Shown here: positions 33,593-58,825 of the stretch, piece after piece
How the letters are laid out: each line of letters starts with the position of its first letter
Position numbering within the stretch: position 1 is the stretch's first letter
The notes under the pieces: generated by a model
The model's input: only the letters and a program-made list of their open reading frames with translations
Databases searched by the model: none
Told to the model about the DNA's origin: nothing
Position numbers and translations under genes: made by a program
Source: Bacillus sp. ISL-45
GTDB lineage: Bacteria > Bacillota > Bacilli > Bacillales > Cytobacillaceae
Length of the DNA: 64,000 bases
Assembly (NCBI RefSeq): GCF_018613195.1
Contig: NZ_JAGGQQ010000023.1
Location: forward strand, 1-64,000
Direction: 5' to 3'

Positions 33593-34060
33593 AGGACGAT
33601 AAATCTTTTTGTTTCTCTTTTATCTGTCCAATATTGCTTTTTATGTGACGATAATCCCTCTTGATTCTTTTTTATCCGCACATTTTCGGCTTTAATTTGA
33701 CGATAACCCTGCTTTATCTTTTTTTATCCGCACATTTTCGACTTTAATGTGACGATAATCCCTCTTGATTCTTTTTTATCCGCACATTATCGGCTTTAAT
33801 GTGACGATAAACCTGCTTGATTCTTTTTTATCCGCACATTATCGGCTTTAATGTGACGGTAAACCTACTTGATTCTTTTTTATCCGCACATTTTCGGCCT
33901 TAATGTGACGATAAACCTGCTTGATTCTTTTTTATCCGCACATTATCGGCTTTAATGTGACGATAAACCTGCTTTATCCTTTTTTACCCGCACATTTTCG
34001 GCTTTAATATGACGATAAGCTCTCCTGCCACTTCTTTATCTGTACATTGTTACAGTTGAT
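33593..34060. repeat. 52-bp tandem repeat array I (about 9 copies)
   Basis: The phrase GTGACGATAA recurs at exactly 52-bp steps (33645, 33697, 33749, 33801, 33853, 33905, 33957, 34009), with a degenerate copy at 33593. Each unit has ATGTGA, then GATAAA, a 15-nt spacer, TTTATCCG and CACATT. It can therefore form a hairpin with an ATGTG/CACAT foot and a GATAAA/TTTATC upper stem. Period 52 is not a multiple of three, so it is non-coding. It lies between the tuf terminator and the S10 promoters. The rest of 33346-33592 and 34061-34180 holds no gene I can support. Confidence 0.92.
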
Positions 34061-52942: not shown

Positions 52943-53938
52943 CTATTCCCCTAGCGGTTGTCGTTTACGGTGGACTTCATACATCAGGAGTGCCGCGGCC
53001 ACTGATGCATTCAACGAAGTTACATGCCCAACCATCGGAAGACTTAAAAGAAAGTCACACTTGTCCCTGATCAGCCTTCCCATACCTTTTCCCTCGCTGC
53101 CGATTACCAGGCCAAGAGGCAATGTTCCATCCATTTGACGAAAATCCTGTTTTGCCGAAGCATCCGTGCCCGCTATCCAGACACCGCGTTCTTTTAATTC
53201 ATCGATGGTCTGGGCCATATTGGTGACTCTTGCAACCGGGATATATTCGATTGCGCCTGTAGATAATTTAGCTACTGTTGCGGTCAGCCCTACCGCTCGC
53301 CTTTTAGGAATGATGATCCCGTGTGCTCCCGATGCATCAGCTGTCCTCATGATGGATCCAAGATTGTGAGGATCCTCAATTTCATCGAGGAGCAAGAAGA
53401 ATGGCGCCTCGTTCTTCTTTTCCGCTGCAGCGAATAAATCATCAATCTCCGCATATTCGTAGGCTGCAACCTGGGCGATGACACCCTGGTGATTGCCCTC
53501 GGCTAGCTGGTCGATCTTCTTTTTCGGGACGAATTGAACGATGACATTGGCTTCCTTCGCCATTCCGATTACCTGCTGCATCTGTCCGCTTTGGGAGCCT
53601 TCGGCAATCAGGATTTTGTTGATGTCACGTTCAGACTTAAGCGCTTCAATCACCGGATTTTTGCCAATGATGTAATCCTGGTTTTCATTTTGTTCCCTAA
53701 GTTGATCAGCTTTTTGCCCTTGTCTCTGGTCACGCCTTGGTTCGTGTTTACGGTCGCTTCTTGCTTCATGTTTTCGGTCCTGTCTTACTTCATGTTTCTG
53801 GTCCTTGCCTCTGGCCTGCTTGTTCTTTGGCTTTTCGTCCTGTCTTTGCGCCTGGTTCCGTGCTGGTTTCCGCTTATTGTCATCAACTGATTTCGGCCTA
53901 TTGTTCCGGCTCTGTTTATGTTGCTGTTTCTGGCTCAT
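52943..53938 (-). CDS. rlmB: 23S rRNA (guanosine2251-2'-O)-methyltransferase RlmB, with long basic N-terminus
   Basis: The C-terminal 240 residues form a SpoU/TrmH methyltransferase: substrate domain IIGKNPVIEALKSERDINKI, then DEIEDPHNLGSIMRTADASG, VIGSEGKGMGRLI and LPMVGHVTSLNASVAAALLM (knot). It methylates G2251 in the P loop. Unusually, about 88 basic, Gln-rich residues precede it, including an 8-residue repeat (DQKHEVRQ, DRKHEARS, DRKHEPRR). The ATG at 53938 has GGGAGG twelve bases before. The frame extends into mrnC, but the start there is less likely. Confidence 0.93.
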   Translation of the reverse strand: MSQKQQHKQSRNNRPKSVDDNKRKPARNQAQRQDEKPKNKQARGKDQKHEVRQDRKHEARSDRKHEPRRDQRQGQKADQLREQNENQDYIIGKNPVIEALKSERDINKILIAEGSQSGQMQQVIGMAKEANVIVQFVPKKKIDQLAEGNHQGVIAQVAAYEYAEIDDLFAAAEKKNEAPFFLLLDEIEDPHNLGSIMRTADASGAHGIIIPKRRAVGLTATVAKLSTGAIEYIPVARVTNMAQTIDELKERGVWIAGTDASAKQDFRQMDGTLPLGLVIGSEGKGMGRLIRDKCDFLLSLPMVGHVTSLNASVAAALLMYEVHRKRQPLGE

Positions 53939-54365: not shown

Positions 54366-55763
54366 TTAGCCTCTTTTCCATCTGATGCCCTGAGGTGTGT
54401 CCTCGATGATGATGTTCATTTCCTTCAATTGGTCACGGATATCATCGGCAAGCTGGAAGTTTCTTTCCTTGCGGGCTTGTGTTCGTTTTTCAATCAGCGC
54501 CTCGATTTCCTCATCCAGCAACTCTTCATCCTTCAGTGACAGGCCAAGTACATCGAACAATGTTTCAAATTCATTCATGAATGCTTTGATGACTTCCTCG
54601 GAAGTATTTTTCTCCATCAAGTACAGATTAGAAAGCTTAGAGAGTTCAAATAAGGTTGATACACCATTTGCGGTATTGAAGTCATCATCCATATCCTTGA
54701 TGAACTGCTCGCGGATCCCGGCGATTTTATCCAGCCATTCCTGGTTGTTATCGGTAAGATTCGCGCTCGCTCCCAGGCGGTGCTTCAGATTTTGGTAAGA
54801 TGTCTTCAGGCGTTCGAAAGCAGCCTGTGTCTTTTCAAGCAGCTCCTGGCTGTAGTTGATTGGATTCCGGTAATGGACAGAAATCATGAAAAATCTTAAT
54901 ACCTGTGGATCAATCTGCTTAATGATGTCATGAACTGTGACAAAATTGCCCAGTGACTTAGACATCTTTTCATTATTAATATTGATATATCCATTATGCA
55001 TCCAGTAGCGGGCAAACGTCTTTCCTGTCAATGCCTCTGACTGGGCGATTTCATTTTCATGGTGCGGGAATGCCAGGTCCTGGCCTCCTGCATGGATATC
55101 GATCGTATCTCCAAGGTATTCGCGGGCCATCGCCGAGCACTCAATATGCCAGCCTGGACGGCCTTTGCCCCAAGGACTGTCCCAGGAAATTTCGCCTTCT
55201 TTAGCCGATTTCCAAAGCACAAAGTCAAGCGCATCCTGTTTCTTTTCCCCAACCTGTATCCTCGCTCCAACCTTCAGCTCTTCAATGGATTGATGTGAAA
55301 GCTTGCCGTATTCTTTAAATTCCCTCGTGCGGTAGTACACATCTCCGCCTGATTCATAGGCAAAGCCTTTTTCTATCAACGCGCTGATAAATTCGATAAT
55401 CAAATCCATTGTTTCCGTTACCCTTGGGTGTGCATCGGCTGTTTTGCAGCCAAGTGCATGGACATCCTCAAAATAAGCGTCAATGAATCGTTGCGCGATT
55501 GTCGGTACGTCTTCCCCAATTTCATTCGCTGCTTTGATCAGTTTGTCATCGACATCGGTGAAGTTCGAAATATATTGTACATCATAGCCGCGGAACTCAA
55601 GATAGCGGCGGACCGTATCGAACACGATGGCCGGACGGGCATTTCCAATGTGAATATAGTTATAGACGGTAGGACCGCAAACATACATTTTCACTTTTCC
55701 CTCTTCTAAAGGGATAAACTCTTCCTTGTTCCGAGTCAGTGTATTATAAATTTTAATTCCCAT
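54366..55763 (-). CDS. cysS: cysteinyl-tRNA synthetase
   Basis: CysRS has 465 residues and charges tRNA-Cys. It has the HIGH motif as [15 protein letters not shown] (KMSKS), and zinc ligands in [18 protein letters not shown] and HHENE. The frame reaches 55796, but the ATG at 55763 ([14 protein letters not shown]) has GGAAGGGG before it. It overlaps the cysE end by 11 bases, so the two are coupled under one T-box. Confidence 0.97.
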
Positions 55764-56439
55764 TTTCCATGCCCCTTCCATGCTTCTCAACTTCAAGTTC
55801 TTCTTGTAATCTGACTAAATCAAGTTCTTTTTTCAAATTAACCAATTCCATCTCGATTTCATTGCATCGATCTGCTACCGGATCTGGCAAATCGCGATGG
55901 TTGAAATCCTTCTTGACCCTGACGCCGTCCTGGATGACGATTTTGCCGGGAATGCCCACAACCGTGGAGTTCGGCGGCACATCCTTCAGGACAACGGATC
56001 CAGCGCCCACTTTAGAATTCTCCCCAATCGTGATCGAACCTAAAACCTTCGCGCCAGTCGCAATCAGAGCATTGTCATTAACAGTCGGGTGGCGTTTGCC
56101 CTTTTCCTTGCCAGTACCGCCCAGGGTCACACCCTGAAACACGGTCACATTATCACCAATTTCACACGTTTCGCCAATGACGACCCCCATTCCATGGTCG
56201 ATGAAAAAACGTCTGCCAATCTTGGCTCCCGGATGGATTTCTACCCCCGTGAAAAAACGGCTAATTTGCGAAATGGCTCTTGCGATAAAATAAAACTTCC
56301 GCTTATAGAAAGCATGTGCCAAACGATGGGACCATATCGCATGCAGGCCTGCGTATGTCAAAGCCACTTCCAGCACACTCCTGGCAGAAGGATCCTGGTC
56401 AAAAACAACATCTATGTCTTCCTTCATCATTTTAAACAT
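55753..56439 (-). CDS. cysE: serine O-acetyltransferase
   Basis: CysE has 228 residues and makes O-acetylserine from serine and acetyl-CoA, the first step of cysteine synthesis. An N-terminal helical domain is followed by a left-handed beta helix of hexapeptide repeats ([20 protein letters not shown]). GGAGGATTTCACC precedes the ATG. It is first in the operon with cysS, behind a T-box and a 52-bp repeat array. Confidence 0.97.
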
Positions 56440-56534
56440 GGTGAAATCCTCCTTCTTTTAAAATTTATTCGATTTTTGCTCATTAATGAGCACCTTCAAA
56501 GCCGACATTGGGTTATAGCCTTACTAATTTGTAT

Positions 56535-56945
56535 TTATGTGACCGAAATCTCACTGGTTCGGCTTTTTCGGGCACATATTCTTCCTTTATGTGACCGGAA
56601 TTCCGCTGGTTCGGCTTTTTCGGGCACATATTCTTCCTTTATGTGACCGGTATCTTACTGGGACAGCTTTTTCGGGCACATATTCTTCATTTATGTGACC
56701 GGTATCTCACTGGGACAGCTTTTTCGGGCACATATTCTTCGTTTATGTGACGGAATCTCACTGGGACAGCTTTTTCGGGCACATATTCTTCATTTATGTG
56801 ACCGGTATCTCACTGGGACAGCTTTTTCGGGCACATATTCTTCGTTTATGTGACCGTAATCTCACTGGGACAGCTTTTTCGACACATATCCTTCGTTTAT
56901 GTGACCGTAAAGTGGTGTTACCTCATTTTTGAGGCACATATCCAA
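56535..56945. repeat. 52-bp tandem repeat array II (8 copies) in the cysE leader
   Basis: GTGAC recurs at 56539, 56591, 56643, 56695, 56747, 56798, 56850 and 56901, that is, every 52 bp (two steps are 51). The core is ATGTGACCGGTATCTCACTG, then GGACAGCTTTTTCGGGCACA. In the first unit CCGAAA pairs with TTTCGG above an ATGTG/CACAT foot. The foot offset is the same as in array I. It lies between the T-box terminator and cysE, so it is transcribed when the T-box allows read-through. It is non-coding. Confidence 0.92.
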
Positions 56946-56967: not shown

Positions 56968-57242
56968 TAAAAAAGCGCCCCTGTCGTATACGACAGAGAC
57001 GCTTGATATGCGCGGTTCCACTCTGTTTAGGCCGCCTTTGAACAGGCATTGACCTCAACTTTAACCTGTTAACGGGAGGACCCGCCCGATACTACTCAGG
57101 CACTGATTGCCTTTTTGCACAGGGACTCCGAGGCGCATTTCAAAAAATGAGAGGCCTGAACCACTTTCAGCCGGTGATGGTTCTCTCTAATAAGCGTCAT
57201 CTTTCTACTTTTCCTCTTCAACACTTTGGTTATATAGAATTA
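56968..57242 (-). promoter_or_regulatory. T-box riboswitch of the cysE-cysS operon
   Basis: The T-box core AGAGTGGAACCGCG is present (57011-57024), followed by a terminator stem GCGTCTCTGTCG/CGACAGGGGCGC with a T-run (56970-57003). Upstream is the long stem I region with a TGC triplet in GAAATGCGCC that could be the Cys specifier. The downstream genes (cysE, cysS) support a tRNA-Cys sensor. Confidence 0.92.
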
Positions 57243-57298: not shown

Positions 57299-58756
57299 TT
57301 AGCCCAAAAGCTTCTGGACTCTTTCCTTTACTTTTTCTTTGCCGATCAGTTCCATTGCAAGCATCAGGTCCGGGCCGTGTGTCTGGCCTGTCGCAGCCGC
57401 TCGGACTGGCATGAAAAGCTTCTGCCCTTTATGGCCGGTTCCTTTTTGTACTGCTTTGACCGCTGCCTTGATTGAATCCGCCTTGAACTCTTCAAGCTCT
57501 TCAACCTCCGCAAGGAATGCATTCAGCACTTCTGGAACCTGCTCGCCTGCAAGGACCTCTTTTGCTTCTTCATCATAGTTTACCTCATCGCGGAAGAATA
57601 AATCAGACATCTCAACGATTTCCGCACCGAAGCTCATCTTATCATGATATAGGGAAATAAGGCCGCGAACCCAGGCATCTTCTTCCTCTGTACGGTTCTC
57701 GCTGACTTTTCCAGCCTTGACAAGGTGTGGAAGCGCTAGCTCGACAACACGGTCCAGGTCAGCCTTTTTCATATATTGATTGTTCATCCATGCAAGCTTC
57801 TGCTGGTCAAATAGCGCAGGAGATTTTGAAAGTCTTGCCGGATCGAAAATTTCAATGAAGTCGTTCTTAGAGTAAATCTCCTCCTCACCTGCTGGAGACC
57901 ATCCAAGCAGCGTGATGAAGTTGAACAATGCTTCTGGCAGATAACCGAGCTCTTCATACTGCTCGATAAACTGGATGATTGATTCGTCACGCTTGCTCAG
58001 CTTCTTGCGGCTTTCGTTAACGATCAATGTCATATGGCCAAACACCGGCGGTTCCCAGCCAAGCGCTTCATAAATCACAAGCTGCTTCGGTGTATTGGAA
58101 ATGTGGTCATCCCCGCGAAGAACATGGGAAATCTTCATCAAATGGTCATCGACGACAACCGCATAGTTATAGGTTGGCGTGCCATCTTTCTTGACGATGA
58201 CATAGTCACCCATCCCGTCTGATTCAAAGCTGACGTCGCCTTTTACCATATCGTCAAACTTCAGAATCTTGCCTGCAGGCACCTTGATGCGAAGGCTCGG
58301 CTGGCGTCCTTCTTTCTCAAACTGTTCCTTCTGTTCTGCTGTAAGGTTTTGGCAGCGGCCTGAATAATGAGGAGTCTCGTTGCGTGCAGTCTGCTCCTCG
58401 CGCTCAGCTTCCAGCTCTTCCTCTGTGCAGTAGCACTTATAGGCATGGCCTTTTTCCAGAAGCTCCTGATTGTATTTTTCATATATGTGGTTACGCTCTG
58501 ATTGGCGGTAAGGTCCATATTCGCCGCCAACATCGACACTCTCATCCCAGTCGATTCCAAGCCATTTAAGATACTTCAGCTGGCTTTGTTCCCCGCCTTC
58601 GATATTGCGTTTTTTATCTGTATCTTCAATGCGGATGATGAACTTTCCGCCTCTGTTCCGTGCGAATAGATAGTTGAATAGTGCTGTACGGGCATTCCCG
58701 ATATGTAAATGTCCAGTCGGACTCGGCGCGTAACGCACCCGGATATCTGATGACAT
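57299..58756 (-). CDS. gltX: glutamyl-tRNA synthetase
   Basis: GluRS has 485 residues. It has HIGH as [19 protein letters not shown] (KMSKS), and an anticodon-binding C-terminal helical part. In Bacillus it also charges tRNA-Gln with Glu for GatCAB. The frame reaches 58786, but the ATG at 58756 ([14 protein letters not shown]) has AGAGGAGG upstream. Confidence 0.97.
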
Positions 58757-58825
58757 AGTGAATCCTCCTCTAATATAGCTGTCCATTATTGTATCATTTT
58801 CAAATATAAAAGCGGAAGTACCTTA

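Follow-up and report, generated by a model that had tools for sequence, protein, structure and literature searches.

The window, i.e., the whole stretch of DNA analysed here, comprises 64,000 nucleotides of a contig of Bacillus sp. ISL-45 (NZ_JAGGQQ010000023.1). Its minus strand carries an ORF that we take to be cysE, the gene of serine acetyltransferase, a T-box leader in front of it and, upstream of the T-box, an ORF that is presumably gltX (Table 1). The eight-unit array that the original prediction placed between T-box and cysE is real; its units follow one another head-to-tail from 56537 to 56939, with ATGTGAC on the plus strand and successive spacings of 52, 52, 52, 52, 51, 52 and 51. 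Tandem Repeats Finder (TRF) returns a period of 52 with 91% match, and an Rfam search over the array yielded no family at gathering score, the only matches obtained with E values up to 10 being far below it. As had been proposed, the period and the foot geometry (units of 41 nt repeated every 52, hereafter 41/52) are common to this array and to array I, the cores of the two being unrelated; array I, with a GATAA-type core, is located between the S10 leader and a gene that, from its sequence, we take to be tuf-like.

The details of the upper stem were only partly borne out. The pairing CCGAAA/TTTCGG is complete in the unit closest to cysE and in no other unit of the cysE array; units 3, 4 and 6 have CCGGTA opposite TTTCGG, an arrangement that folds in DNA as a 3-bp inner stem (unit 4). 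The wobble attributed to unit 2 is indeed a G.T on the plus strand but amounts to a C.A mismatch in the cysE transcript, which corresponds to the minus strand. Compared with shuffled sequences, the RNA folds of two cysE units are better on the cysE-sense strand (z of -3.0 and -2.6) than on the other (-1.9 and -0.5), and in DNA folds of two units it is the strand opposite to the cysE sense that does better.

Two further repeats were noticed in the surroundings. A palindrome, TGCTCA..TGAGCA, at about 56479-56496 upstream of cysE, is found in most array-bearing leaders and in the array-less leader of genome G018, is absent from G002 and is a possible operator; three copies of a 24-bp tandem repeat lie at 53736-53806 within an ORF that is presumably rRNA-methylase-like.

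Table 1. Positions in the window of the cysE array, its neighbours and array I.
Feature	Positions	Strand	Remarks
Array I	33595-34018	+	41/52 geometry
cysE ORF (presumed)	55753-56439	-	relatives in 21/21 genus genomes
Unit 1	56537-56577	+	ATGTGAC..GCACAT, 41 nt; closest to cysE; full upper stem
Unit 2	56589-56629	+	41 nt
Unit 3	56641-56681	+	41 nt
Unit 4	56693-56733	+	41 nt; 3-bp inner stem in DNA fold
Unit 5	56745-56784	+	40 nt
Unit 6	56796-56836	+	41 nt
Unit 7	56848-56887	+	40 nt; changed right foot (CGACACAT)
Unit 8	56899-56939	+	41 nt; closest to T-box terminator
T-box leader	56992-57230	-	Rfam RF00230, 95.3 bits (gathering 93)
gltX ORF (presumed)	57299-58786	-	upstream of T-box

Anatomy and occurrence of the 41/52 unit

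Within its own genome the pattern ATGTGACN{15,42}GCACAT has 44 matches, 42 of which are 40-41 nt long, against two for the reversed control, so that 41/52 repeats occur there beyond chance. The same geometry with exchangeable cores is found at many unrelated intergenic places, both genome- and genus-wide. The exact polar pattern is present in 44/193 genomes of the family, including 19 of the 21 of the genus, and outside the genus it occurs eight times in G051 and six times in G111; a single match, as in 23 further genomes of the family, is roughly what the reversed control gives. No exact unit was found in two genomes of the genus, G007 (100% complete) and G009 (66%). With a stricter pattern 26 stretches were obtained in named genomes, the carriers including Mesobacillus selenatarsenatis, M. 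subterraneus, Cytobacillus oceanisediminis 2691 and Bacillus marasmi and, judging from the record labels, one Granulosicoccaceae MAG (one stretch) and "Chryseobacterium" ISL-80 (five stretches). In the fetched loci, 432/450 units are 41 nt long and 305/367 spacings are 52, a further 35 being 104 or 156, in a census that covered lengths of 39-43, took some loci from a search allowing 40-42 nt only and counted one G001 array in two loci. Many arrays elsewhere consist of one to three units. Three contigs of the ISL-45 assembly (C4, C22 and C27) end in, or a few bases from, 52-nt arrays (L041, L044, L047); the units at the ends of C4 and C22 are identical and may belong to a single array.

The 41-nt unit is an imperfect palindrome having constant feet, a directional A.G non-pair and covarying inner pairs, an anatomy that is new here. 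In a profile weighted over 81 arrays (419 units) there is almost no variation at positions 2-7 and 36-41, and the left foot is usually preceded by three T; the ATGTGAC strand is rich in pyrimidines in the loop (13-29) and in most of the linker, which are variable otherwise. The outer stem is made of pairs 1-5/37-41; it is followed by position 6/36, mostly A.G and Watson-Crick in 4/74 non-redundant units. The inner pairs 8-12/30-34 are formed in 66, 48, 51, 46 and 47 of these 74 units (expected 43.5, 31.3, 26.6, 36.2 and 32.6). In the 70 of the 74 units that were aligned for this purpose, the four from G051, which belongs to another genus, being omitted, the covariation score reaches 0.233, compared with 0.080 after shuffling, with 0/500 shuffles as high, and falls to at most 0.108 when the partner is shifted along; on the other hand, two other measures, pairs changed on both sides and further pair types, did not exceed the shuffles in the same 70 units. 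Over pairs 8-12 of the 74 units, G.T and A.C cells are equally frequent (17 each, expected 24.2 and 29.8, respectively), and therefore neither strand displays the preference for wobble pairs that a selected RNA should have.

 Between arrays of one genome the feet are 85-95% identical, whereas the loops (32-38%) are near the shuffled level (28-36%); linkers (0.39-0.52 vs 0.31-0.36 shuffled) and stems retain some likeness. Within one array the units resemble each other, and the cysE unit compared across 15 leaders has identities of 0.89 in the feet, 0.74 in the stems and 0.53 in the loops. The constant feet, the loops near shuffled level between arrays and the covarying inner pairs agree with the earlier proposal of one structural class with exchangeable cores.

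Array direction relative to replication and to neighbouring genes

In six complete genomes, with the origin placed by dnaA and the terminus zone defined as the last 7% before the antipode, unit direction matches the replichore in 60/60 accepted rows outside the terminus, the unit reading ATGTGC...GTCACAT in the leading-strand sense; near the terminus four rows are consistent with this polarity and two are not. The rows scored were 88 out of 263 matches, about one per array plus single matches, and one array was entered twice among the 60. Six rows were symmetric and 16 (10 consistent, 6 not) failed a filter of 3 of 6 inner pairs that was chosen after the sequences had been seen; five of the failing rows lie within arrays and are consistent, whereas the six inconsistent ones are single matches. 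A few arrays hold single symmetric or opposite-reading units. Rows from different genomes are not independent in that orthologous sites, such as that of cysE, recur, but the places are distinct within one genome, and in G010 alone 15/15 rows (14 arrays) are consistent. In the window both arrays run opposite to the L10 and S10 leaders, in line with the replichore rule provided that the genes concerned follow the fork. The literature search returned no report of a replichore orientation of such repeats; "52 nt" and "orientation" are both absent from the accessible text of PMC6749651, and a 2020 paper in J Bacteriol by Subirana and Messeguer, cited in PMC8161180, may say more.

The neighbouring genes, taken as the longest ORFs and not from annotation, account for the direction less well. 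For 26 oriented arrays of the six complete genomes (two of them, L086 and L107, near the terminus) flanking genes agree on 38/52 sides with the direction that the array implies, and L106 obeys the replichore rule despite having both neighbours head-on. In a larger set, in which orthologous sites are counted more than once, agreement was seen for the right neighbour in 57/74 cases and for the left in 50/74, roughly what leading-strand gene bias alone would produce. Unit direction thus tracks the replication fork better than it tracks the neighbouring genes, and the same-way orientation of the arrays suggests a role at the level of the chromosome rather than a switch of cysteine genes.

A crude scan made for this analysis, with shuffles preserving base counts only, found a sense-strand terminator at most 150 bp upstream of 36/79 arrays, against 1/79 in shuffles and 3/79 downstream, and an other-strand terminator in the 3' flank of 19/79 (shuffles 6). 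Promoter-like sites did not exceed the shuffles in three of the four classes, the remaining one being the antisense 5' flank (22 vs 19.8, 79 arrays). The sense terminators indicate that the arrays often occupy the gap after a transcription unit, like the cysE array after the T-box terminator.

The cysE leaders and the possible role of the arrays

Comparison of the cysE leaders of the genus revealed 0-14 copies. Units are in register between terminator and cysE in 15 of the 19 sufficiently long leaders (1 to 14 copies), and in 12 of the 15 carriers 97-100 bp separate the nearest one from the gene downstream; in G011 the leader has one unit within 181 bp upstream of the gene. No unit is located between terminator and cysE in G018, G002 and G014, and one weak match in the leader of G007 was judged, on reading the sequence, to be due to chance; the short upstream stretches of G009 (47 bp) and G003 (198 bp) likewise contained no unit. 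A T-box at the Rfam gathering score is nevertheless retained in G018, G002 and G007, which lack accepted units, and the leader of G014 has a T-box-like sequence but no match at that score. In G012, G005 and G008 (L062, L063, L070) the stretch separating the T-box terminator from the cysE units contains another GC-rich intergenic repeat.

The original prediction had considered it possible that cysteine synthesis is subject to an additional layer of control; T-box read-through would place the hairpins in the leader and alter cysE expression. The position between T-box and cysE and the regular distance from the gene are in its favor, and, since read-through transcripts would include the repeats, a side effect on cysE is possible. 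However, the same units stand beside many unrelated genes, their direction follows the fork over the neighbouring genes, and T-boxes persist where no unit is accepted at this site of variable copy number, so that such a control is highly improbable and cysE-specific regulation as the main role was rejected.

The most likely reading, advanced tentatively, is that of a DNA-level, fork-oriented protein-binding array, a genus-specific variant of the 52-nt Bacillus satellites, of which the cysE copy would be one inherited site and no cysteine-specific device. The feet ATGTGAC and GCACAT of each 41-bp palindrome would be the recognition parts, the A.G non-pair at 6/36 would break the symmetry and set the direction, and the 52-bp period, equal to some five turns of B-DNA, would place all units on one face of the helix, allowing a dedicated protein to bind them in register and form a polymer. 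Since the arrays of a replichore share their fork-relative direction, a bound array would have an ori-to-ter polarity that might serve segregation, fork handling or nucleoid organisation. We know of no protein that binds the 52-bp unit. Some observations weigh against this reading: the covariation of the inner pairs favours a hairpin or cruciform over a plain duplex site, two of the six near-terminus rows disagree and there are odd single units, the RNA fold is better in the cysE sense, G007 and G009 have no exact unit, and the H. coagulans-like genome G402 is non-polar among the matches listed. That the phased asymmetric palindromes constitute an unreported chromosome-wide ori-to-ter polarity signal in Mesobacillus, with a putative reader at the fork or in segregation, is a somewhat more doubtful proposition.

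Could the arrays be near-neutral satellites that slippage makes grow and shrink, just one fork-relative orientation being stable? The variable copy number at the cysE site, the likeness of units within an array and the strong pyrimidine skew of the loops would fit, but feet and length are preserved across arrays whose loops are randomised and the H. coagulans-like arrays, which have this period too, lack polarity among the matches listed, which makes this unlikely. REP/RAYT and IS200/IS605 elements spread through a single-strand nuclease of the HUH/Y1 type, and a hairpin-forming element that folds on the template of the lagging strand and spreads, or once spread, in this manner would owe its orientation to lagging-strand insertion. 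Such an origin, compatible with the imperfect palindrome, its conserved mismatch and covarying stem, with the replichore polarity and with the finding of Y1_Tnp in seven of the eight genomes searched, is unlikely, considering that G015, which has no Y1_Tnp, tops the six complete genomes in pattern matches (86), that G007 has four Y1 matches, some broken, but no exact unit, and that loops near the shuffled level between arrays of one genome give no sign of recent dispersal.

Quite unlikely, finally, is a function at the RNA level, in which hairpins or small RNAs would be strongly expressed and hence transcribed co-directionally with replication. The hairpin does covary, the cysE-sense units do fold as RNA and 52-nt satellites of B. 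coagulans were detected in RNA-seq, according to the part of PMC8625621 available; nevertheless, sense terminators often precede the arrays, the crude scan gave no sense promoter-like excess over shuffles, no wobble bias exists on either strand and neighbouring genes face the other way on 14/52 sides.

Relation to other repeats and polar elements

The array truly belongs to the 52-nt Bacillus satellites, a class already known but unexplained. According to the portion of PMC8161180 consulted (Subirana and Messeguer 2021), about 30% of the Bacillus species examined have tandem repeats of constant size (52 nt) and variable sequence with short signal sequences, often accompanied by their reverse in one repeat; there are mostly 4-10 copies, and arrays were detected from 4 repeats upwards. 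The species named there include B. selenatarsenatis, B. boroniphilus and B. subterraneus; RNAfold models are presented, roles involving nucleoid proteins or small RNAs are put forward as proposals and the repeats are called enigmatic. The present repeats share with them the period of 52 (51-53), the single size with variable sequence within a genome, the short signals common to the repeats of a species, here the feet, and the copy number of at least 4 (8 in the cysE array). The ATGTGAC/GCACAT feet, the 41-nt palindrome, the covariation and the replichore polarity were found in the present analysis; a word search of the accessible text of PMC8161180 gave no occurrence of "orientation", "palindrom" or "hairpin", and "orientation" is likewise absent from that of PMC8625621. 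What is new is the direction mark, the covarying palindrome, the frequent place past terminators and, in this genus, the fork polarity; the mark, the palindrome and the polarity render a repeat of constant size and unknown role testable.

With five published consensus repeats as the query, 29/397 genomes of the order gave a match, and by eye some of the other 52-nt families have shorter palindromes with the same period. In G402, whose 28 arrays among the matches listed (to 2.58 Mb; 127 matches in all) under-sample the right arm, the CGTAGA..TCTATG class is mixed among these matches on both the left (10+/9-) and the right arm (4+/5-), and array direction agrees weakly with the right neighbour gene (20/28) and in 13/28 cases with the left. 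Polarity as a general 52-nt trait was thus rejected: it is shown for the class of the ISL-45 genus and not for 52-nt repeats at large, and the 52-nt geometry can occur apart from the polarity. The ISL-45 genus and other families also have a second 52-nt class, whose feet are TGTCC..GGACA (L190, L196, L189, L197, L186); its few matches, a sample too small for a verdict, are mixed and read + on the right and - on the left arm in G018, + on the left in G016 and - on both in G307. An indicus-like class, with four arrays and thus an equally insufficient sample, reads + on the right and - on the left in both G378 and G385.

REP/BIME elements with their RAYT transposases are also intergenic imperfect palindromes with a mismatch, but the present repeats form head-to-tail 52-bp arrays with unrelated loops. 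A REP/RAYT identity is unsupported, PF01797 (Y1_Tnp) being without a match in the carrier G015. As interspersed intergenic direct repeats the units resemble the staphylococcal STAR elements, as these are described in the part of PMC3532100 seen. A parallel to their orientation is offered by the polar motifs KOPS and SRS of FtsK and SpoIIIE, which, according to the section of PMC2680272 available, are oriented from ori to ter on each chromosome arm, just as unit direction follows the replichore here; unlike the 8-bp KOPS, however, the present elements are arrays of 52-bp palindromes at about a dozen places per genome and, if their polarity is functional, would be large polar elements of a type new to bacterial chromosomes.
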